Of a stretch of 64,000 nt of DNA, positions 44,837 to 56,083 are shown piece by piece. This stretch comes from Nitrospira japonica (GTDB lineage Bacteria > Nitrospirota > Nitrospiria > Nitrospirales > Nitrospiraceae): contig NZ_LT828648.1 of the NCBI RefSeq assembly GCF_900169565.1, positions 994,876 through 1,058,875 on the forward strand, given 5' to 3'. Under the pieces are notes generated by a model. The model made no database searches, was not told the origin of the DNA, and was given only the letters and a program-made list of their open reading frames with translations. Within the stretch, counting starts at the first letter, position 1; the number at the start of each line of letters is the position of its first letter. Both the position numbers and the translations under genes were made by a program.

Positions 44837-47800
44837 TTACTTCATAGCGGTTGGAACGGCCTGCGGCTGCGGCGTGATGTCAGCATGCTTGGCTCCCATG
44901 CTCGCCGCGCCCAGCGGTTGAATCCGTGAGTCGCCGACCGGCAACACCCGGAGATACCCCCATTGCCCTGATTGCGTGTAGGGCAGCCGATTGTTCGACC
45001 ACACGAAGTCTCCGGCCTGGCGATACGGTCCACCTGCTCCGCCGCGGATGAAGACATCGAGGGTCTCGGATCCGGCATACTCCACCACACTGATCATGTC
45101 GGCGCCCGGCATGTAGGGCTCGATCGGCCATTCATGGCCTTCGACTCCGAACATCCCGTTTTGTTCGCTATTGGCCCCAATCACGTGGATGCGGACCGGG
45201 TCGCCGGCATGCGCCTCGATTAGAGGCGTGGACGGATCTTCCGGTTTGTCCACGACGCAGGGTTGGAAAATCTTACCCAGTGAACAACCTTGCTCTTCTC
45301 GGAGCTTGTACGGTTCGGCGCGGTAGTTCACCGAGGTCAATCCCGCCACGTTCTGCACATAGGGCATGAACGCAGTCCCGATGATGTTGTCCTCGTCCTG
45401 GAAGTAGAGGGCGACATCACGATAGTTCCGCTTGCCCACGTTCTCCGGCAGGCTGGCGTCGACGATGACGTCGGCCCTCCAGGAATTCTTTTGCGAGAGG
45501 TCGGCCCCTGTGACAGGGTCACGGTACTGCGATCCCTTCGGACCGACGATAATGGCCCCGTACAATCCGTTACGAGGATTGACGACGATGTTGCCGCCAT
45601 CCCATACCAGCGACGTCGTTTCCTTGTTGGCAGGATGCGCGTAGTAGGTATAGGCACGGCTCTCGCCGGGACCCACCGTCTGATCGCCGCCATTGTTGCC
45701 GACGTTCAGGCCCTGGCTGTCTTTCGGATCGAAGGCTAATCCAGGGGCGAAGAAGGACGCCCGGCTGGCCTTCATCTTGTTCTTCAGATTCACCTTGATG
45801 CAGTCGCCCAGGTTGGCCCGCAGCGTCAGCGGATGCGGGGTCGTCCCGCTGGACACCGTCGTGGCTTCCTCTTCGAGCGCGAAGATCTTGCCATCAGGCA
45901 TGGTCATTTCGATCTTCCGCTCGAAATCCACCTCGATCACGTCCGGCGCCTTCTGGTTGAGTTTCATCGGGCGGTCCAACGCCACGACGTTGAAGTTCTT
46001 TACCGGAGCGTCGGCCGGACATACGGAACTGGGAGTGGCGGGAATTCCGAGTGGATTGGTCCCCTTCGGGAGCGGCTTGAGATCCGCCACTTCCTTATCG
46101 AGGACGCGCACGATGCCCCATCCGCCTTCGGCGAAGTGGGAGCTTCGGCCGTTGAAGTGAATGTAGTCTCCCGGCATGCCCTGGAATCCTCCTGCCTTGG
46201 TCACGAGGTCGTACCGCTCGGCGATCCCGACGTGAATCGAGTTCTTCCGATTGGCGTCCGCCGCGTACCGTTCCGTGAGGAAGGTATGGCCGGAGATCGT
46301 CCAGACGTGCGATTCGTTCATCAGCTGGTGCAACAGGCGGAACACCATGGTGTCCCCCGTATATGCCCGCAATAGCGGAGTATCAGGATCCCCGTGGATC
46401 GCGCTGCTGAACAGTTTCGACGTGTCCGGGTTGTTCGAGAGGCGTTGCGCGAACGGCTCCGCGCGGAAGTTGAACCCGCTGCCGGTCGTATGCGTGCCGC
46501 CGTTGATGTACTTGTTCGGGGCGTTCATGATCTTCTCGGGCATTTGGAACGACACCGTCTTGCCCGCTTCCAGGGCCACCTCGATCGGCTGTCCGGGAGG
46601 ATTGCCGGCTTCGATGATGTTGACGGTGTGCGGCACTGTGTCGTGGATGGAGACCATCAATTCACGGAAGCTGCCGCTCACGCCGGCCCCGATCGGCTCG
46701 TTGCTGTGAATGTCCGCGATCGGACCGCTGTAGACGAGCTTGCCGTTCTTCGGATCGTGATAGGTTGATCCGAACGGCTCGACCAGCGTCACGCCGAACC
46801 CGCCGTGCGGCCAGGTCGTCGCGCCGAACGCGTGGTCATGCCAGAACACGGTTCCCATGTCGACGTCCACCCACCACCGATAGCGGACGAACTCCGGCGA
46901 CACGAGATCGTTGGCCGGGTGGTTGTGCTTCAGCGGTTTAAAGAATGTCACCTGATCGCCCTTGATGTCCTTGATACGGGCAACCTCGGAGCAGCTCTTG
47001 TCGCGCGGCAGCGAGGCAGTGGCGTCGTTACCGTTCTCCAGGCAATCCATGCCGACCATGACTTCGGTGTTCACATGGAACGCCGTGGCGCCCGGAGCCA
47101 TCTGGATCTTGATGCTGGTGGCGCCTACTTTGGCCCCTCCGACGAGCTTGGCGACCATCGGCGCAGGCAGCCCGTGCTTTGTTTTCTTGCCGAACATGGT
47201 GAACGGGCGTACCGACATCTCATATTCGAACCCGGAGATGACGCCGTCCGAGTTCCCCGTGTCGAACTGGAAGAAATGAGGATGGATGTTGATCTTGGAC
47301 GACTGGAAGTTGGTGTAATCGTCGTCGTCCCATTCGCTGGTGAGCAGGAGGTCCACGCAGTCGTACACGTTGGCACGAATGACCGCGGGAAGCTTGAGGT
47401 CGTCGTTCGCTCTGATCAGACGCTCCTCTTCGTGCAGCACGTAGATTAGGCCGTCCTTGTCCACGATCGCTGGCTCTTTGCCCTGTTTCTTGGCGAGCGT
47501 GATCGGCATCCGGGCGAAGTGAATGTTGTAGGACTTTTGATTGGCATTGTCGGGACAGAGACTCCAACGGCCCTGTTCGCCCGGCTTGGCCGGCTCGGAG
47601 GTCCGTTCACCGTTGGCGTCCTGGTGGATCGGCTCCAGCCAAGGTGCGCCGCTGTGATTCGCCGAGAAGGGCACACGCTTCCCAAAGTGCGGCTTGAAGA
47701 GCGGCCAGGCCAGTTTCCCCGTCGTCGGATCGAACAGGATGGCCGGTCTGGTACTGTCATCCCACTTGGCCGCCCACTGATACTTGGGATTCTGCGCGGT

Positions 47801-49771
47801 GCTCTCGCGTTCGCCACGGGCAATGTTGCCGTCCCACTTCCAGTCCCACACGGTCGAATCGTAGGACAGAATCTGGCCCTTCTCGTCGTTTGTGTGGCCC
47901 GGTTGTCCTTGTGCAGGGACGAACATCTCGACCCAATCCTTGATGTTCACGATAACCGGATCGGATTTCCAGTTGGTCTTCTGGCTCTTGTCGACGATCT
48001 TGAAGGTCTTGCCGAACCAATCCAGGGTGGTCCCGATCAGCTTGTCGGACGAGACGCCTTGCTTGATGCGGCCCTTCCGGTCAGGTAACTCCTGTAGATC
48101 CGGCATCGAATCGGTGTGGGTTGAGCCGACCTGCAGCGTATTGTAAAAGCGGCCGTAACCCCACATGCCCGCCACATAATGATGGGCAACGTGGCAATGA
48201 TAGAGAAACTCGCCCGCCAAATGCTGGCAGCCGCCTCCGCCGCATTCCGGCTCCAGGTCCAAGGCCTCAGACGGCCCGATGACTTCCACATCCACGCGGT
48301 CCGACTTGGTTCGGACGACGGGATATTTCACCGGGCCGTCTTGGCCCATGGCCCAGAGATTGTTGGGTTCTGTTCCCGGGCTCCGCTGCCAGCGGATCGA
48401 TCCGCTGTGGGGATGATGGGAGTGGAACACCTCGGAACCGCCGTGCACTAGCCGCCATTTGACCGGATCGCCCAGATAACCGCGCGCGATCGTGGTGGGC
48501 GTGTCGCCGAAGGTGTAGGCGCTATAGGCCATCGATTCGTCTTCAAAGCCAAAATATTCATGCTGTAGGTGCATCTGATCGATTCCGAACGGCTCGCTGC
48601 GATAGTTGATGGCGCGGCCGCCCGGACGGTAGGCATCCGTCAGCGGATCGCGTTGCGGCAGGAAGTCGCCTTTCTTGTTCAATGGGCGGAAGGCTTCGTC
48701 GCCGATCTCATGGTAGAAGAGCACGAACTCGCGAAAGTCTGGACCGCTCCCGTTGTCGATGTTGACCTGCCAGCCGCTCCTGACTGACTTGTCGGGGCCG
48801 GTACCCAGCGAATCGAGATACTTGGAGCCTTTGGGTTCGACGATGAAGGCTCCGAAGAGGCCCAAGACCGTCAATTCACGGTCATGGCTGTAGGAGTGGA
48901 ATTGCCGCACGCCTTCCTGCATGTGTGGGTGGATATACCATTCAAATTCCTGGGCGTTGCCCGGCGCGACGATGGAATCAGGATTCGTCGTCGTCGCCGG
49001 CCTGCCCGTTGCGCTGACGATCATGCTGGAGGCTTGGATGAACAGACTTCCATCCTCGCTTTCCATCTGATTGCGGAGCGTCATCTTGACACAGTCGCCT
49101 TGGTTGGCGCGGAGCACCAGCGGTTGAATGACGTCGCCCTGCAGCCCCGTGGAGACGGAACCGGGATCGTATCCGTCTTGTTCGCGGGATGCCTTGTTCT
49201 TGGATTCCTCGGCGCGGGCCTTCACGAGGTCCTCAGTCAGCACATACATATAGCCGGGATAGTAGTCGAGCCAGCGGTTCAACGTGATCTCGATATTGAT
49301 CATCGATACATCGTAGGTCTTCGTCGGTACGTTGGCCGGACACTTGCCTCCCGACGACATGACCGGCTCACCCTTGCTTGAATCCGTCATGAGCAGGAAG
49401 CTGCTGCCGTCCTGCCCCATGTACTGGTGCATCATGGACATGTTATTGAACGCGCCGGAGGTCTGCTGCGCCTGCGCGTCCTTCTGGGCCTGCTCTTCAA
49501 GCCGGCGCATCAGGCGATGGTGCTGAAGCTCCATCTTTTCCGATCGTTCAGGTCGTCCTTCGATCGTGTCCTCCACGACCGTCTGGCCCTTCAACTGCTG
49601 GGTCCAGCCAGGCAACGCCACTTGGGTGGCATGGCCTTCGTGCGATCCTGCATCTCCCGCAACTGATGGCCATGGCGTCGCCATGAGGCTGGCCGCCAGC
49701 AGCACGCTGTGCAGCAGAGCCACGGTGCCGGGATGTTTCCGGCTGCGTTGAGGTTGAACTAGAAAAGACAT
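44837..49771 (-). CDS. Giant multidomain multicopper oxidase (MofA-like)
   Basis: The 1644-residue exported protein (signal about 16-40) contains at least six cupredoxin-like domains. Copper motifs seen: HSYSH (about 290), HSHHPHSG (about 450) and HCHVAHHYVAGMWG (about 525) in the first pair of domains; NIHPHFFQF (about 827) and WHDH (about 975) in the middle; ESHVWTISGH (about 1155). The HCH-x3-H-x4-M motif gives a type 1 site next to trinuclear ligands. The last two domains keep only vestiges (GVEGHEW near 1540). Size and plan recall MofA, the putative manganese oxidase of Leptothrix, and MnxG. GGGGAGG precedes the ATG. Cluster partners are a blue-copper-like protein, two SUMF1-fold proteins and a cytochrome. 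The substrate (Mn, Fe, Cu or an organic) is unproven. Confidence 0.9.
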   Translation of the reverse strand: MSFLVQPQRSRKHPGTVALLHSVLLAASLMATPWPSVAGDAGSHEGHATQVALPGWTQQLKGQTVVEDTIEGRPERSEKMELQHHRLMRRLEEQAQKDAQAQQTSGAFNNMSMMHQYMGQDGSSFLLMTDSSKGEPVMSSGGKCPANVPTKTYDVSMINIEITLNRWLDYYPGYMYVLTEDLVKARAEESKNKASREQDGYDPGSVSTGLQGDVIQPLVLRANQGDCVKMTLRNQMESEDGSLFIQASSMIVSATGRPATTTNPDSIVAPGNAQEFEWYIHPHMQEGVRQFHSYSHDRELTVLGLFGAFIVEPKGSKYLDSLGTGPDKSVRSGWQVNIDNGSGPDFREFVLFYHEIGDEAFRPLNKKGDFLPQRDPLTDAYRPGGRAINYRSEPFGIDQMHLQHEYFGFEDESMAYSAYTFGDTPTTIARGYLGDPVKWRLVHGGSEVFHSHHPHSGSIRWQRSPGTEPNNLWAMGQDGPVKYPVVRTKSDRVDVEVIGPSEALDLEPECGGGGCQHLAGEFLYHCHVAHHYVAGMWGYGRFYNTLQVGSTHTDSMPDLQELPDRKGRIKQGVSSDKLIGTTLDWFGKTFKIVDKSQKTNWKSDPVIVNIKDWVEMFVPAQGQPGHTNDEKGQILSYDSTVWDWKWDGNIARGERESTAQNPKYQWAAKWDDSTRPAILFDPTTGKLAWPLFKPHFGKRVPFSANHSGAPWLEPIHQDANGERTSEPAKPGEQGRWSLCPDNANQKSYNIHFARMPITLAKKQGKEPAIVDKDGLIYVLHEEERLIRANDDLKLPAVIRANVYDCVDLLLTSEWDDDDYTNFQSSKINIHPHFFQFDTGNSDGVISGFEYEMSVRPFTMFGKKTKHGLPAPMVAKLVGGAKVGATSIKIQMAPGATAFHVNTEVMVGMDCLENGNDATASLPRDKSCSEVARIKDIKGDQVTFFKPLKHNHPANDLVSPEFVRYRWWVDVDMGTVFWHDHAFGATTWPHGGFGVTLVEPFGSTYHDPKNGKLVYSGPIADIHSNEPIGAGVSGSFRELMVSIHDTVPHTVNIIEAGNPPGQPIEVALEAGKTVSFQMPEKIMNAPNKYINGGTHTTGSGFNFRAEPFAQRLSNNPDTSKLFSSAIHGDPDTPLLRAYTGDTMVFRLLHQLMNESHVWTISGHTFLTERYAADANRKNSIHVGIAERYDLVTKAGGFQGMPGDYIHFNGRSSHFAEGGWGIVRVLDKEVADLKPLPKGTNPLGIPATPSSVCPADAPVKNFNVVALDRPMKLNQKAPDVIEVDFERKIEMTMPDGKIFALEEEATTVSSGTTPHPLTLRANLGDCIKVNLKNKMKASRASFFAPGLAFDPKDSQGLNVGNNGGDQTVGPGESRAYTYYAHPANKETTSLVWDGGNIVVNPRNGLYGAIIVGPKGSQYRDPVTGADLSQKNSWRADVIVDASLPENVGKRNYRDVALYFQDEDNIIGTAFMPYVQNVAGLTSVNYRAEPYKLREEQGCSLGKIFQPCVVDKPEDPSTPLIEAHAGDPVRIHVIGANSEQNGMFGVEGHEWPIEPYMPGADMISVVEYAGSETLDVFIRGGAGGPYRQAGDFVWSNNRLPYTQSGQWGYLRVLPVGDSRIQPLGAASMGAKHADITPQPQAVPTAMK

Positions 49772-49996
49772 ACGGCCTCCCCTGTTGTACCCGCCTCTTC
49801 GGCGGCTGGTTGAAACACGTTTCCTGTCAATCCTTCAATCAATGACTTACTCCTGGTTCCATGTAGTCAGAGCACCGGCCTCCGAGCGACCTCCGGCCAA
49901 CAACCGGGAAAAGGATAGAGCTGGTGAAGGCTTCCTTCTTTCGAAGGAGGGTCATTCGGAGGCCGGTCCTAATCACCCGGGCCTTCACCAGCGCTC
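49772..49996 (-). ncRNA. Structured 5' leader of the oxidase mRNA (candidate cis-regulatory RNA)
   Basis: The predicted transcript start (near 49996) lies just before a leader with two perfect 12-bp inverted repeats. GCTGGTGAAGGC (49920-49931) pairs with 49981-49992, and ACCGGCCTCCGA (49874-49885) pairs with 49956-49967. The repeats interleave (B', A', B, A in the transcript), the topology of a pseudoknot or of two exclusive stems. A small hairpin CCTTC-TTTC-GAAGG (34-38 and 43-47 after 49900) lies inside. A further stem (CCGCC/GGCGG, near 49788-49803) precedes the ribosome site. This matches no riboswitch class that I recognise. Confidence 0.45.
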
Positions 49997-50005
49997 CGCT
50001 CATAG

Positions 50006-50021
50006 CGCAATAGATATGCCG
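50006..50021 (-). promoter_or_regulatory. Sigma-54 promoter of the multicopper oxidase gene
   Basis: The minus strand reads CGGCATATCTATTGCG, with GG at 50020-50019 and GC at 50008-50007 (N10). GGCA and TTGC are consensus. It is the only strong promoter candidate that I see in the 500-base region upstream of the oxidase. Confidence 0.6.
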
Positions 50022-50085
50022 ATCGTCTTCTTGGCGTTGTTCTGAAGAAAGTCGCTGTGAATCGAGAGCTTGAATAATGTGATCT

Positions 50086-50200
50086 TGTCCGGACAGCCGA
50101 TACACTTCCGGGTAGTTCTTCTAGCTTTTTGGACAAAAATCCCTAGGTCATGTGGAAATTCAAAAATATCGCCAGCTTCGGCTGTCCAATTTGTTAGACA
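50086..50200. promoter_or_regulatory. Inverted GGACAGCCG repeats upstream of the oxidase promoter
   Basis: TGTCCGGACA (50086-50095) is a perfect palindrome that overlaps GGACAGCCG (50091-50099). The reverse copy CGGCTGTCC occurs at 50179-50187, within TGTCC-N8-AGACA (50183-50200). The sites lie about 70 and 160 bp upstream of the -24 element at 50020. They are candidate binding sites for the activator encoded at 50857-52218 or another regulator. Confidence 0.4.
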
Positions 50201-50277
50201 TAGAAGTAGAGGGTTTGGGGAACAATGGGGCAATCGGCACTTCGGAGTCTGCTCTGAGCACCTGATCAGAGGGAGCG

Positions 50278-50847
50278 ATGCAGGTCGCGATCCTTATCAT
50301 GTTGGTTCTTGCCATGATCGCTTCGCCCATAGCTTCCAGGCCTACTCCGGTTTGTGCCATCGAGTTCGTCGCCGATCAAACCATCCGGGCGGAAGGGCGT
50401 GTGCATCGCAGCAGCCTCTATTACCGCGACGATATGTGGAGGATCGAGCACAACGATCCTGGTTCGGTGGATATTACGATTGTCAGAAAAGATAAGGGAC
50501 TGATCTGGCTGCTCATCGGGCGGATGAGGCAATTCGCCACTTTGCCCTTCGACGACTCGACCGATGTGATGCTGGACCGTACGTTGGTCAACGAATCTGG
50601 CCGCGAATTGATCGGCACAGAAATCCTAGACGGACATCCCACTGCTGTGTATCAGGTCAGCGTGCAGAACGGCGAACAAGTACTCGTGTACTACCAGTGG
50701 TGGGCTGACGACATTCAGCTGCCGCTTCGTCTCGCTCGTCAAGACGGTGCCTGGGTCGTTCAGTACAAGAACGTGAGGCTTCGTCCAGTGTCGTCCAGTT
50801 TCTTCGAGCTGCCGCTCAATTACCGCCCTGTGGAGACTCAGCCATGA
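50278..50847 (+). CDS. Exported DUF4412/LolA-like protein
   Basis: The 189-residue protein has a signal peptide (about 1-20, ASPIAS) and a beta-rich domain. Patterns such as MWRIEHNDPGSVDITIVRKDKGLIWLL and LIGTEILDGHPTAVYQV are typical of DUF4412 and outer-membrane lipoprotein-sorting (LolA/LolB-like) folds. It is probably periplasmic and may bind a lipid or another hydrophobic ligand. It is divergent from the oxidase gene and convergent with the activator gene, 9 bases from that gene's end. AGAGGGAGCG precedes the ATG. Confidence 0.75.
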   Translation: MQVAILIMLVLAMIASPIASRPTPVCAIEFVADQTIRAEGRVHRSSLYYRDDMWRIEHNDPGSVDITIVRKDKGLIWLLIGRMRQFATLPFDDSTDVMLDRTLVNESGRELIGTEILDGHPTAVYQVSVQNGEQVLVYYQWWADDIQLPLRLARQDGAWVVQYKNVRLRPVSSSFFELPLNYRPVETQP

Positions 50848-50856
50848 CTGAGGGTG

Positions 50857-52218
50857 TTACGTCAGTCCGTGCTCGCGCAATTTATTATAAAGGCTTGACC
50901 GGCTGATCTTCAGCAATTTGGCCGCCTTTACGCGATTCCCTGACATAGCGCTCAGTGCCTCTCCGATGCGGAGTCGTTCTGCCTGCCGCGCCGCGGACCG
51001 CAGGTCCTCTGTTTTTGGCCAGGACGGCTTGGCCGCAAGATCCGAACAGATCAGGGCTGGTCCGGCTGTCGTGACCACGGCTCGCTCGATGTAATGCTGC
51101 AGTTCGCGCACATTACCCGGCCACGCCGCTTCGCTGAGCGTCTGCAGCACTTGGGATGAAACCGTTCGCATTGGCTGATGGTGACGTTCGCAAGACGCCG
51201 CGAGAAACCGTTTGACCAGCAAGGGGATGTCCTCGCGGCGGTCGCGCAGGGATGGCAAGAACAAGGGCAGAACCGCGAGGCGATAATACAGGTCTTGGCG
51301 GAAGGCCTTGGCTCCGACGAGTTCGGCGAGGTCCTTGTTCGTGGCCGAGACGACCCGCGCGTGGATCCTGATCCGCTCGGTGCTTCCCACCGGCCGGATC
51401 TCGCTTTCTTGAAGGACGCGGAGCAGTTTGGCCTGGAACGTCGGCGTCGTGTCACCGATCTCGTCGAGAAAGATCGTTCCGTCTTCAGCCGTCTGAAACA
51501 GTCCACGTTTGTCAGAGATTGCGCCCGTGAAGGCTCCGCGGACATGTCCGAACAACTCACTCTCCAGCAGGGTCTCGGGTAAGGATCCGCAATCCACCAC
51601 GACGAAGGGCCGGCTCTTGCGTTCGCTCAACTCATGAATGGTCCGTGCGACTAATTCCTTACCGGTTCCGCTTTCTCCTTGGATGAGCACGGTGGCGGAA
51701 CTGTCCGCTACCAGCCTGATCATGTCGAACAACTCCCGCATCGCGGGGCTGTGCCCGACCAGGCCGCACAGGGTGTCGTGCCGGGTGTTGGAAACGGAGG
51801 GCTGGCGCGAGATCCGGCTCTGCGATTCGTTATGCTTGAACAACACCAGCATGGACGTCGTCTCTCCCAGGCTCGAAGCGAGGGGAAAGGCCCGACGCAT
51901 TCCGCAAGGAGTGTCGTCCTCTTCAGGGAAGCAAACCATGGAGGCATCCGGCGTCTCGATGACCTTGAGGGCGGGGCAGGTCTCGCAGGCTTGGCGTCGA
52001 TGGGCGAAGGCTTGATAGCACTTGGCGTCCGGTTGCTCGTCTGCGGACGCGGTCGACCAGGCGGCATCATTGGCATACATGACGTTGAAATGGCGGTCCA
52101 TCACCGCCACGCGATCGGTCAAACCTCCGGCCAGCGATCTGATGGCGTCCAGTCGGGCATTCAGAACGGGATCGGCGATGGAAGGATTGTCGACAGAGTC
52201 TTGCTGAGATCCGGCCAT
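50857..52218 (-). CDS. Sigma-54-dependent activator with cysteine-rich PAS domain
   Basis: The 453-residue protein is a bacterial enhancer-binding protein. It has a PAS-like sensor (about 25-130), an AAA+ domain with Walker A GESGTGKE (181-188) and sigma-54 contact loop GAFTGA (228-233), and a Fis-type helix-turn-helix (NRVKAAKLLKISRSSLYNKL). The PAS has five cysteines (C67, C78, C81, C96, C105) in the pattern CYQAF-x7-CETCP, suggesting metal, heme or redox sensing. It has no receiver domain. It lies beside the oxidase control region and follows a receiver gene by 44 bases. I infer that it controls some of the sigma-54 promoters here. Confidence 0.93.
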   Translation of the reverse strand: MAGSQQDSVDNPSIADPVLNARLDAIRSLAGGLTDRVAVMDRHFNVMYANDAAWSTASADEQPDAKCYQAFAHRRQACETCPALKVIETPDASMVCFPEEDDTPCGMRRAFPLASSLGETTSMLVLFKHNESQSRISRQPSVSNTRHDTLCGLVGHSPAMRELFDMIRLVADSSATVLIQGESGTGKELVARTIHELSERKSRPFVVVDCGSLPETLLESELFGHVRGAFTGAISDKRGLFQTAEDGTIFLDEIGDTTPTFQAKLLRVLQESEIRPVGSTERIRIHARVVSATNKDLAELVGAKAFRQDLYYRLAVLPLFLPSLRDRREDIPLLVKRFLAASCERHHQPMRTVSSQVLQTLSEAAWPGNVRELQHYIERAVVTTAGPALICSDLAAKPSWPKTEDLRSAARQAERLRIGEALSAMSGNRVKAAKLLKISRSSLYNKLREHGLT

Positions 52219-52866: not shown

Positions 52867-54444
52867 CTATGCCGGAGACAAGGCGTTGCCGCCGTCCGAG
52901 GCTTTCGGCAGGAGGATTGTAAACGTGGTGCCCTTACCGGGCTCGCTCTGTACCGTGATGGATCCCTGATGCTCATCGACGATGCCCTTGACGACCGTGA
53001 GACCGAGCCCGGTGCCTTTTCCGAACTCCTTCGTCGTAAAGAAGGGTTCGAATATCCGTCCGACAATCTCTGTCGGGATGCCTTGGCCCGTATCAGAGAC
53101 GGACAAGGCCACATGGCCAGTGCGAGGCTCAAGCCCGATCCGCAAGGTGCCCTGTTCCGGCATGGCATGAAGTGCGTTCATGATGAGATTGATCAGCACC
53201 TGGCTGATCTGGTCGGCATCGGCCCACACGGCGGGGCAGAGCGGGGCAAGATTCAACTCGAGGCTGGTGTGGGTTTTCGCCAGTCGTTCATGAAACATCT
53301 CGACCGTGTTTTCCACGACAGGCTTCAGATCGAGGGGGCCGCGCATGGGTGGTTTCCGTCTGGTAAAGGCCAGAAGTTGGTTCATGACTCTCGTGATCCG
53401 TTCGACCTGAACGATGATCGTCTGGAGGCCTTTCCTGACCGGCTCTTCCCGGACGCGATCCAGTAAATATTCCGCGCGTCCGAGAATGACGTTCATCGGT
53501 GTGCCGATCTCGTGCGCCATGCCGGAGGCAACGGTGCCGAGTTCGGCAATGCGCTCGGTCCGGCGGAGCTGCTCTTCCATGCGTCGCCGCTCGGTGAGAT
53601 CGCGGAGAATGACCGTGTAGAATCGCTTGCCCTCGACCGCGACTTGCGAGATCGAGGCTTCGACCGGAAACTCCTCCCCGCCGGCCTTGAGGCCCGTGAC
53701 CGTTCCGAGCGCGCCCATCTTACGGGCTGTCACGCCGGATCCTCCGAAGATCTCCACATGGCGCCGGTGTGCCTCCCTGAAGCGGGCGGGAATGAAGCGA
53801 TCGAGCGGTTGCCCGAGGGCGTCCGCCCTCGAACACCCGAACATCCGCTCGGCCGCGTGATTGAACATGACGATGCACTGGCCGTCGTCCAGCGTCAGGA
53901 TGGCGTCCATCGCGGCTTGAATGATCCCCTCCAGCCGGAGTTGCGTGATCAGGTAGCGTTCCTCCGCTTGCCGCCGGCCGGCGAGCGCGCCCATCACGGC
54001 CGTCTCCGCATAGGCCCGTGCTTCTTGCGCGGCCGTCAGAAGCCCTTGGGTGTCTGCCCGTTCGGCCTTCATCGCCTCCAGAACCTTGTGATGTCCGATC
54101 TCCGCCGTCTCAAGAGAAGATGTCGCGCGCTTGTGCCGGTCCAAGAGCCAGGCGATCAACCAGAGCACGCCCGTGCCCAGGGTCCGGTTCACCAATGCAT
54201 AGGGAGGTGCGTCGGCAGGATTGAATGCCAGATCCGCCCAGAGCAACGCAGTGGCGGCTGTGCAGACCACGACCGGGGCGCGTTCGCGGTCCGAGAAAAA
54301 CGTCAGGAGGAGCGGGATGACGTAGAGTACGGAGACGGCGATGCCCGAAGGAGCCAAGCCATCGGCAAGAAAAATGCCCAGGGTCAGGACAAGGGGCATG
54401 GTCAGGGGGATGGGACGGGACAACGCACTGCCGACGTCGTTCAT
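52867..54444 (-). CDS. Membrane histidine kinase with PAS domain (NtrB type)
   Basis: The 525-residue kinase has an N-terminal membrane domain of about three or four helices (15-115), a short coiled coil, a PAS domain (about 170-295), the HisKA box MAHEIGTPMNVILGRAEYLL with the phospho-histidine, and an HATPase domain ending DTGQGIPTEIVGRIFEPFFTTKE. It lies 32 bases after the NtrC-type regulator gene and is its probable partner. The stand-alone receiver downstream could also take phosphate from it. The sequence resembles kinases of ZraS/AtoS type. Confidence 0.92.
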   Translation of the reverse strand: MNDVGSALSRPIPLTMPLVLTLGIFLADGLAPSGIAVSVLYVIPLLLTFFSDRERAPVVVCTAATALLWADLAFNPADAPPYALVNRTLGTGVLWLIAWLLDRHKRATSSLETAEIGHHKVLEAMKAERADTQGLLTAAQEARAYAETAVMGALAGRRQAEERYLITQLRLEGIIQAAMDAILTLDDGQCIVMFNHAAERMFGCSRADALGQPLDRFIPARFREAHRRHVEIFGGSGVTARKMGALGTVTGLKAGGEEFPVEASISQVAVEGKRFYTVILRDLTERRRMEEQLRRTERIAELGTVASGMAHEIGTPMNVILGRAEYLLDRVREEPVRKGLQTIIVQVERITRVMNQLLAFTRRKPPMRGPLDLKPVVENTVEMFHERLAKTHTSLELNLAPLCPAVWADADQISQVLINLIMNALHAMPEQGTLRIGLEPRTGHVALSVSDTGQGIPTEIVGRIFEPFFTTKEFGKGTGLGLTVVKGIVDEHQGSITVQSEPGKGTTFTILLPKASDGGNALSPA

Positions 54445-54476
54445 ACGGTCCGATTCGGCCTGGACTGGCCTGGAGT

Positions 54477-55856
54477 TTAATCCTCCGCCTGGGCCGTCCC
54501 TTCGATCTCGTCGAGTTTGCGATAGAGGGTTTTTCGATCAATCCCCAATAGGTGGGCGGCCCGATACTTGTTGCCTCCCGTTTTTTCGAGGATCTTCCGA
54601 ATATATTCCTTTTCGACTTCATGCAGCGGCAAGGTTTTTTCGGCTGCTTCGTCGAGGATGCGGCGATCACCCCGTGAGCCTTGGACCGGAGCCGGCAGGT
54701 CCTCCGGCAGGATCTTCTCGCCGCGGCTCAACGTCACCGCCCGCTCGATCACGTTCTCCAGTTCTCGCACGTTGCCGGGCCAGTCGTAATCGATCAACAT
54801 GGCCAAGGCCGATTCACCCACCGCCTTGACGCCATTGCCGCGCGCGTGACCGCACTTGCGCAGAAAGGCCTCGATCAGCAGCGGAATATCTTCCCGGCGC
54901 TCTCGAAGCGAAGGCAGTTTCAATTCGATGACGTTCAGCCGATAGTACAGGTCATCGCGGAACCGCCTGGCTTTGACTTCTTCCGCCAGGTTCAGATTGG
55001 TCGCCACGATCACGCGTACGTCGACGGCGACCGATTTCGTGGCGCCGACTCGCCGGATGTCCTTTTCCTGGATGGCGCGCAATAGCTTGGCTTGCAGTAT
55101 CAGCGGGAGCTCGCTGATTTCGTCCAGGAACAACGTGCCCTTCTGCGCCTCCTCGAACAGCCCGCGCTTGTCCGCCTTCGCGTCGGTGAATGCGCCCCGG
55201 ACGTGGCCGAAGAGTTCGCTCTCCAGCAACTGCTCGGGGATCGCGGCGCAGTTGACCGGCACGAACGGCGATGCCTTCCGGTCGCTGTTGTAGTGAATGG
55301 CTTTCGCGACCAGTTCCTTGCCGGTGCCGCTCTCACCGGTGATGAGAATATTGCTCGGACTATCCGCGACCCGTTGGATCAGGTCGAAGAGGGTCTGCAT
55401 CGGTTTGCTCTTCCCCAGGATTTGGTGAAAGCTGTATTCCTTGTGCACTTCCTTCCGGAGCCGGCTGACCTCCCGTCGGAGGGAGGCCTCGCGGATCACC
55501 CGTTCGATCACCCGCAGCAGCTCCTCCTTCTTTACCGGTTTCGTCAGATAGTCGCTCGCCCCGTGTTTCATCGCCTCGACCGCGGTTTCCACCGATCCGA
55601 ATGCCGTCATCAGGACGACCCCGATGTCCGGATAGAGACGCTTGATCGCCGAGAGGAGCTCAAGGCCCTCGACGCCTTTCATGCGGAGATCCGTCAGAAC
55701 CGCGGCATAGTCGGCCTCCTTCAAGCGGACCAGGGCTTCCGCTCCGTTGGCCGCCGTCGTGACTTGATGGCCCCGATCCTTCAACAAGTCGGAGACCGTT
55801 TCGCGCAGGGCCTCGTCGTCGTCCACGACAAGCACCGCTCCCCATTCTTCCGTCAT
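54477..55856 (-). CDS. NtrC-family response regulator with GAFTDA loop
   Basis: The 459-residue regulator has a receiver domain (D56 in VLTDLRMK), an AAA+ domain (Walker A GESGTGKE, 174-181), and a Fis helix-turn-helix (NKYRAAHLLGIDRKTLYRKL). The sigma-54 contact loop reads GAFTDA (221-226) instead of GAFTGA, a known natural variant. It is likely functional, though loop changes can alter sigma-54 contact. The ATG at 55854-55856 follows AAAAGGGATA; an upstream frame start is dropped. It forms a unit with the kinase gene. Its targets are unknown. Confidence 0.92.
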   Translation of the reverse strand: MTEEWGAVLVVDDDEALRETVSDLLKDRGHQVTTAANGAEALVRLKEADYAAVLTDLRMKGVEGLELLSAIKRLYPDIGVVLMTAFGSVETAVEAMKHGASDYLTKPVKKEELLRVIERVIREASLRREVSRLRKEVHKEYSFHQILGKSKPMQTLFDLIQRVADSPSNILITGESGTGKELVAKAIHYNSDRKASPFVPVNCAAIPEQLLESELFGHVRGAFTDAKADKRGLFEEAQKGTLFLDEISELPLILQAKLLRAIQEKDIRRVGATKSVAVDVRVIVATNLNLAEEVKARRFRDDLYYRLNVIELKLPSLRERREDIPLLIEAFLRKCGHARGNGVKAVGESALAMLIDYDWPGNVRELENVIERAVTLSRGEKILPEDLPAPVQGSRGDRRILDEAAEKTLPLHEVEKEYIRKILEKTGGNKYRAAHLLGIDRKTLYRKLDEIEGTAQAED

Positions 55857-56083
55857 GACTATCCCTTTTCGATCGAATTCGATGGGCATGCCGCGCGGGC
55901 ATCCCTCAAGGCGGAAAGGGTAAGTGCTGTTGCCGTCTTTTGCAATAGCCCTCCGCTCCCTGCTTCGAGTGGGGATGCGAGGCGTTTGATTCGAGCAGTC
56001 CCCGGACCGATGCGGGCTCGGCGGGGTGGTTGCCGATGAGTGGTCGAGAGAGCACAGCCGCCGTGAAGTTGCGCGGCGGGCTG

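Follow-up and report, generated by a model that had tools for sequence, protein, structure and literature searches.

Nitrospira are major nitrite oxidizers and complete ammonia oxidizers. Within the 64,000-nucleotide stretch of the Nitrospira japonica genome (one contig, 4.08 Mb) that was analyzed here (the window), the minus strand encodes an MnxG-like giant multicopper oxidase of 1644 amino acids (44837-49771; Pfam domains Cu-oxidase_3 and Cu-oxidase), hereafter oxidase 1. The protein matches the solved structure of MnxG (PDB 9bxa) with an E-value of 4.8e-86, scores 112.3 bits with the NCBIfam MnxG model, far below the cut-off of 3100, and is only a distant relative of this manganese oxidase. 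Farther upstream on the same strand lie a gene for a sigma-54 activator that contains a Fis HTH domain and lacks a receiver domain (50857-52218), and genes for a histidine kinase (52867-54444) and an NtrC-type response regulator (54477-55889), all recognized by their Pfam domains. It is possible that this activator and the two-component pair (52867-55889) drive the promoter of oxidase 1, the latter as the signal input.

Most genomes encode a second oxidase (oxidase 2) that is ~68% identical to oxidase 1; the N. japonica copy is located at C1:144329-149131. In G052, G064, G066, G114 and G127, unlike N. japonica, the two genes are a few kilobases apart on the same strand. The oxidase 1 copy of another genome (G045:C12:138416-143290) contains six in-frame TGA codons and is therefore either a broken gene or the result of a bad assembly.

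The leader element and its promoter

A sequence-only reading of this DNA had pointed to two perfect 12-bp inverted repeats ahead of the oxidase gene, and both are present exactly where it placed them (49920-49931 with 49981-49992, and 49874-49885 with 49956-49967). Along the minus strand, the coding strand of the oxidase, the arms alternate as that reading had it, in the order A (49992-49981), B (49967-49956), A' (49931-49920) and B' (49885-49874), followed by the ribosome-binding site (RBS; 49780-49773) and the ATG (49771); the arms extend to 15 nt (93%) and 21 nt (86%). Both interleaved repeats are real and above the chance expectation: among 20,000 dinucleotide-preserving shuffles of positions 49772-49996, at least one perfect 12-bp pair was found in 41, and two pairs in 6. 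A third copy of the B complement, GGAGGCCG at 49780-49773, which the earlier reading missed, is the RBS of oxidase 1 itself.

The A repeat belongs to a conserved leader RNA element of ~82 nt (49915-49996, minus strand; covariance model R1 match, 1.4e-16; fold z-score, -6.15), and the R1 match is unique within the N. japonica genome. Stem P1 is formed by repeat A (5' strand, 49981-49992) and repeat A' (3' strand, 49920-49931), with 49981-49992 paired to 49931-49920. The P2 hairpin (49949-49978) consists of a GGGU/ACCC stem, an internal loop, a GGA/UCC mini-stem and the hexaloop CCGGCC, and the P3 hairpin (49933-49948) reads TCCTTC-GAAA-GAAGGA. In an alignment of homologs (87 elements reduced to 78 distinct sequences), 99.9% of the cells are paired in P1, with two-sided changes in 7 of its 11 modelled pairs; the corresponding values are 94.6% for the lower stem of P2 and 91.9% for P3, where each of the 3 modelled pairs shows two-sided changes. 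The P2 mini-stem is invariant, and covariation is therefore uninformative in this part of the hairpin. For the whole element, 97.6% of the cells are paired and two-sided changes occur in 11 of the 22 pairs; the alignment contains 103 cells with two-sided changes versus 25 in shuffles, none of the 500 shuffles equaled it on any of five measures, and sliding the pair partners abolishes the signal. These compensatory changes support the fold as a structured cis-leader RNA, and the notion of a regulatory RNA has thus withstood the search for covariation in homologous leaders. The N. japonica element folds at -44.9 kcal/mol, with none of 200 shuffles being as stable. When the entire leader is folded without constraints, the loop is not paired with the RBS, and the stability is unremarkable, only mildly above that expected from composition (z-score, -1.6), because the signal resides in the element.

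From the alternating repeats, either a pseudoknot or two alternative structures had been deduced. This suggestion is half correct: B and B' are an apical loop and a downstream copy of its complement, and A/A' is the constant, covarying stem P1 rather than one of two alternatives. Accordingly, the two pairings were rejected as equal alternative folds, given that A/A' covaries throughout and B/B' is limited to a subset, and so was an interleaved pseudoknot as the defining fold: P1 is conserved, but only 50 of the 87 listed leaders contain a complement copy of at least 10 nt, so that B/B' cannot define the fold.

Among the matches listed, 87 of the 90 oxidase 1 leaders have a single element no more than 500 nt from the start codon, and in the remaining three (G087, G097 and G099), an element is located farther upstream on the same contig; its placement is thus constant across the leaders of this gene family. 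This leader set excludes G070:C45 and G159:C94, with too little upstream sequence, as well as partial matches and the duplicate loci L010, L011, L013 and L014. In the counts over 87 leaders given here for RBS complements, promoters, T-rich tails and decoys, the element slices of L019, L099 and L102 are uncorrected, and the start of L019 was corrected for the promoter count only. The R1 search detected the element in 152 of 175 genomes of the family and in 113 of 395 genomes of a phylum-wide sample, all of the latter belonging to two families within a single order. Named genomes in which the motif was matched are Nitrospira, including the element carriers N. defluvii and N. moscoviensis. When 28 genomes without the element were searched under laxer settings, the scores were weak throughout (21.8 bits at best).

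The element is preceded by a sigma-54-type promoter, cGGCATatctaTTGCg (GG-N10-GC; 50006-50021, minus strand). The GG-N10-GC pattern is found in 85 of the 87 listed homologous leaders; in 82 of the 87, the -12 GC has its C 13-14 nt upstream of P1, and a similar promoter score was reached in 4 of 156 background windows. The usual geometry of sigma-54 promoters fixes the transcription start relative to the -24 and -12 elements, and with this spacing, the predicted start is at ~49995. Because this position falls 1-3 bases before P1, the element is predicted to be the very 5' end of a sigma-54-driven oxidase 1 transcript. As noticed previously, the repeat block lies between this predicted start and the oxidase RBS. 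Upstream of the promoter, the region 50091-50198 contains a perfect 10-bp inverted repeat (GGACAGCCGA/TCGGCTGTCC, 77 nt apart) and a 16-nt pair at 75%, both possible activator sites.

No Rfam family reached its gathering score anywhere in the window, known riboswitches being rejected on this ground, and none was found up to an E-value of 5 in 49700-50280, in line with the earlier impression that no riboswitch consensus fits. Taken together with covariation and the fixed sigma-54 promoter, the absence of an Rfam match makes a new regulatory RNA, as first proposed from the repeats, a well-supported assignment. The sequence on the 3' side of P1 is T-rich (0.45 versus 0.22 in the 87 listed leaders). 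This tail is a clear terminator-like U-tract in one genus (g14) and is weak in N. japonica, so that a short RNA, if released there, may be released by cleavage.

The invariant loop and its complements

The apical loop of P2, GGACCGGCCTCCGA (49956-49969), which contains repeat B, is the proposed pairing site: it is identical in 78 of 78 distinct elements while the stems vary. In N. japonica, the loop bases CGGCCTCC are complementary to the oxidase 1 RBS, and at least 7 nt of loop complementarity at this RBS are found in 77 of the 87 listed leaders; in three of the ten exceptions (L095, L100 and L101), the RBS site lies beyond the assigned start codon, which was placed too early. For comparison, ~8% of the GGAGG RBS-like places in N. 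japonica continue as GGAGGCC ((148-61)/(1703-612)). Repeat B' (TCGGAGGCCGGT, 49874-49885) is a further loop complement, or 'decoy', within the leader; in the listed leaders, in-leader complement copies of at least 10 nt occur in antisense in 50 of 87, in sense in 0 of 87 and in shuffles in ~0.3 of 87. Tracking of the gene's own RBS by the loop through compensatory change was rejected for the main class, in which the loop is invariant though the RBS varies in L028, L029, L037, L066, L085 and L087.

The main finding, which the sequence-only reading could not see, is a complement outside the window, in front of the other oxidase gene. The oxidase 2 RBS is AAGGAGGCCGGTCC, directly abutting the ATG, and its GGAGGCCGGTCC portion is the exact complement of the loop bases GGACCGGCCTCC. 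The leader element itself was found in 0 of 40 oxidase 2 leaders among the matches listed. In these 40 leaders, the RBS columns are 93-100% conserved, whereas in the flank, a single column is at 68% and the others are at most at 57%. In an extended set of 47 oxidase 2 leaders (the 40 and 7 more, drawn from the matches listed, with the RBS playing no part in the choice), the exact 12-nt loop complement is present in 38, and all are within two substitutions of it. The variants are GGAGGCCAGTCC in four leaders (including N. japonica, where it leaves one A-C mismatch with the loop), GGAGGTCGGTCC in three (a G-U pair), GGAGGCCGGTGC in one and GGAGGCCGTCCC in one. The loop thus shows extended complementarity to the RBS of a distant mRNA that is conserved across species, as expected of a trans-acting base-pairing small RNA. 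In the main class, the loop and the oxidase 2 target are both nearly invariant, and the target variants are not accompanied by changes in the loop, so that no compensatory change speaks for the pairing in this class. In one genome (G017:C10:1166-1481), the exact oxidase 2 RBS motif occurs twice before the gene, 300 bp apart, the upstream copy opening an 11-codon frame.

The predicted energies of the loop duplexes are -30.5 kcal/mol with the consensus oxidase 2 RBS, -24.3 kcal/mol with that of N. japonica and -18.7 kcal/mol with the own RBS, compared to a mean of -15.0 kcal/mol for N. japonica background GGAGG..ATG sites. In this background, which comprises the first 100 of 1703 listed places, some of them not genes, 0, 1 and 11 of 100 sites, respectively, pair as strongly. 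Matched in strength by 11 of these sites, the own-RBS pairing in N. japonica is not exceptional and therefore constitutes weak evidence when taken alone.

Among 90 genomes of the family with a completeness of 95% or more, the target motif AGGAGGCCGGTCC-N0-8-ATG was found in 50, at 54 places, i.e., about one per genome, versus 2 matches of a reversed-pattern control. In the phylum sample, the motif occurs in 69 of 395 genomes, 67 of which are within the two element-bearing families, with single matches in two others (G273 and G364). Of the 46 places that were read, 40 open an oxidase paralog (28 of 31 from the first family, 12 of 13 from the second), and those in two genomes of other families precede no oxidase start (2 of 2). 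Three genomes of the sister family (G275, G281 and G311) have the oxidase 2 RBS and no element detectable with R1. Two candidate targets were discarded as chance matches: the exact-motif site C1:406266 in N. japonica, which lies inside an ORF on the opposite strand, and the second match in genus g14 (G023 and G034, the one in G034 having been read), located where a receiver-domain ORF ends.

Some genomes carry extra copies of the element, and 23 of the 24 such places read precede further oxidase paralogs, the 24th having been read in the wrong frame. In three extra copies, the loop is GGACTGGCCTCCTGAA (ending in CCTCCTGAA) and the RBS is TTCAGGAGG, the two matching over 9 bp in a shifted register; the sister-family loop, CCGGCCTCC, is opposed by GGAGGCCGG in 7 of the 9 main-type leaders read. 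This apparent co-variation of the RBS with the surroundings of the loop is the nearest approach to a compensatory test. A second class of elements (P1 CTGTCTGGTG.., with TGA after the loop; L251, L253, L260, L261 and L265-L270), without an evident sigma-54 promoter, is also found before further oxidase paralogs. Furthermore, other hairpins seem to employ this loop as well: on the minus strand of L361 (G037:C112), beside an ORF for an NtrC-type regulator and ahead of a short open frame, there are two tandem hairpins with the loop AAGGACCGGCCTCCTGA and unrelated stems, and G043 and G044 each contain two such loops 104 bp apart.

A predicted oxidase switch and its alternatives

The observed fold, promoter position, complementarities and their distribution are compatible with a model that we favor with moderate confidence: the leader would give rise to an anti-RBS RNA that acts in trans and also has a cis arm directed at its own gene, forming an oxidase switch under sigma-54. 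The leader of one oxidase probably controls the translation of both, because its unchanging loop exactly matches the RBS of the second gene in reverse complement. Transcribed from the sigma-54-type promoter, the element at the 5' end of the oxidase 1 mRNA would fold as the P1 stem bearing P2 and P3, with P2 displaying the invariant loop GGACCGGCCUCCGA as an anti-RBS. The form acting in trans could be either a freed RNA, produced when the transcript is terminated or cleaved within the U-rich sequence that follows P1, or a part of the mRNA. Its loop would form 12 bp with GGAGGCCGGUCC at the oxidase 2 RBS next to the AUG and block translation; judging from the established action of small RNAs, a duplex extending from the Shine-Dalgarno sequence to position -1 should prevent initiation, and we infer repression as the outcome of pairing in the cell. 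In cis, the same loop could pair with the RBS of its own mRNA over 7-9 bp, and the decoys (10-13 nt, where present), being the stronger partners, would hold it off that RBS in the full-length mRNA. The expected result is a switch between the two paralogous oxidases once sigma-54 fires. A loop that has to fit several RBSs at once would be frozen, consistent with its observed invariance.

The complementarities within the oxidase 1 leaders could also belong to a riboregulator that acts in cis only, its loop pairing either with the decoy B' (translation on) or with the RBS (translation off), and the oxidase 2 RBS being an unchanged relic from an ancestral gene preceded by the element. The frequent loop-RBS complement, the decoys in over half of the listed leaders and the extra copies, which lie in cis ahead of further oxidase genes whose RBSs match, all agree with this explanation. 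Nevertheless, we consider it unlikely, because it leaves unexplained why an oxidase 2 gene without the element keeps the 12 nt before its AUG constant and why the loop retains GGAC, which is unpaired with most own-gene RBSs, and because 37 of the 87 listed leaders have no decoy of at least 10 nt. Far less probable is a DNA or RNA site for a protein, with a dimeric regulator that would recognize GGA-N6-TCC in the leader, in the decoys and at the oxidase 2 RBS. The loop bases are indeed partly palindromic, but the copies are strictly oriented, the loop in sense and the others in antisense; the six central bases are constant, where such a site would leave them free; the covariation of P1 and P3 is that of an RNA; and the shifted-register copies preserve complementarity while losing GGA-N6-TCC. 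We give the least credence to a ligand- or metal-sensing riboswitch, the latter suggested by the sequence-only reading and without support in this analysis: high conservation, the position in the leader of a metalloenzyme gene and the conserved P2 internal loop, which with the apical loop would form the aptamer, speak for it, but it matches no Rfam family, its invariant bases are accounted for letter by letter by complements elsewhere and it is found only before one protein family.

Under the favored model of leader action in trans and in cis, the RNA yields a letter-exact prediction of post-transcriptional control in the 152 element-bearing genomes of the sampled family and names both the target and the type of promoter. 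It also suggests why cells retain two giant MnxG-like oxidases. More tentatively, and somewhat short of even confidence, a single ultraconserved leader might combine a cis switch, a trans-acting small RNA and, by means of its decoys, a sponge that decides between these two, coupling the whole MnxG-like paralog family across the Nitrospira order such that sigma-54 induction of one oxidase silences the other.

Relation to known RNA regulators

Small RNAs of alphaproteobacteria carry the anti-Shine-Dalgarno sequence CCUCC in hairpin loops. Compared to these, the Nitrospira complementarity spans 12 nt, reaches the AUG and is specific to one paralog family. A literature search, with most subscription journals outside its coverage, returned no paper on a base-pairing RNA or small RNA linked to a multicopper oxidase in Nitrospira; the available part of a paper on riboswitches in Nitrospirales deals with guanidine riboswitches only.

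The systems closest in their action are three that share parts of the proposed arrangement. According to the accessible portion of the cutFOG report (PMC9973294), an anti-Shine-Dalgarno RNA structure controls translation of a multicopper oxidase in Rhodobacter capsulatus as well; there, a local stem-loop is opened by the stalled upstream peptide CutF, whereas in the Nitrospira leader, no conserved upstream ORF was recognized, and the anti-Shine-Dalgarno loop lies far upstream and matches a second gene. The Qrr small RNAs of Vibrio, as presented in the available text (PMC3262071), have in common with the Nitrospira element a sigma-54-type promoter, an NtrC-type activator (LuxO) and RNA pairing with RBSs. 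The qrr genes are free-standing, whereas the Nitrospira element is an mRNA leader; a sequence relationship was checked by the Rfam scan only, with no match.

RhlS of Pseudomonas aeruginosa is presented in the accessible part of its description (PMC6786874) as a small RNA from the 5' UTR of rhlI that affects the translation of its own gene and another mRNA, the same combination of a 5'-UTR-derived RNA with own-gene and second-mRNA targets that is proposed here. Unlike RhlS, as far as that description extends, the Nitrospira element has a sigma-54-type promoter and a loop that is invariant across two families, and its release as a short RNA is a prediction. RhlS raises the translation of rhlI, and its other target, which it represses, is an unrelated receptor mRNA. 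The Nitrospira target is instead a paralog of the gene behind the leader, and the element offers a clean natural example in which an mRNA leader seems to work on a paralog of its own gene.
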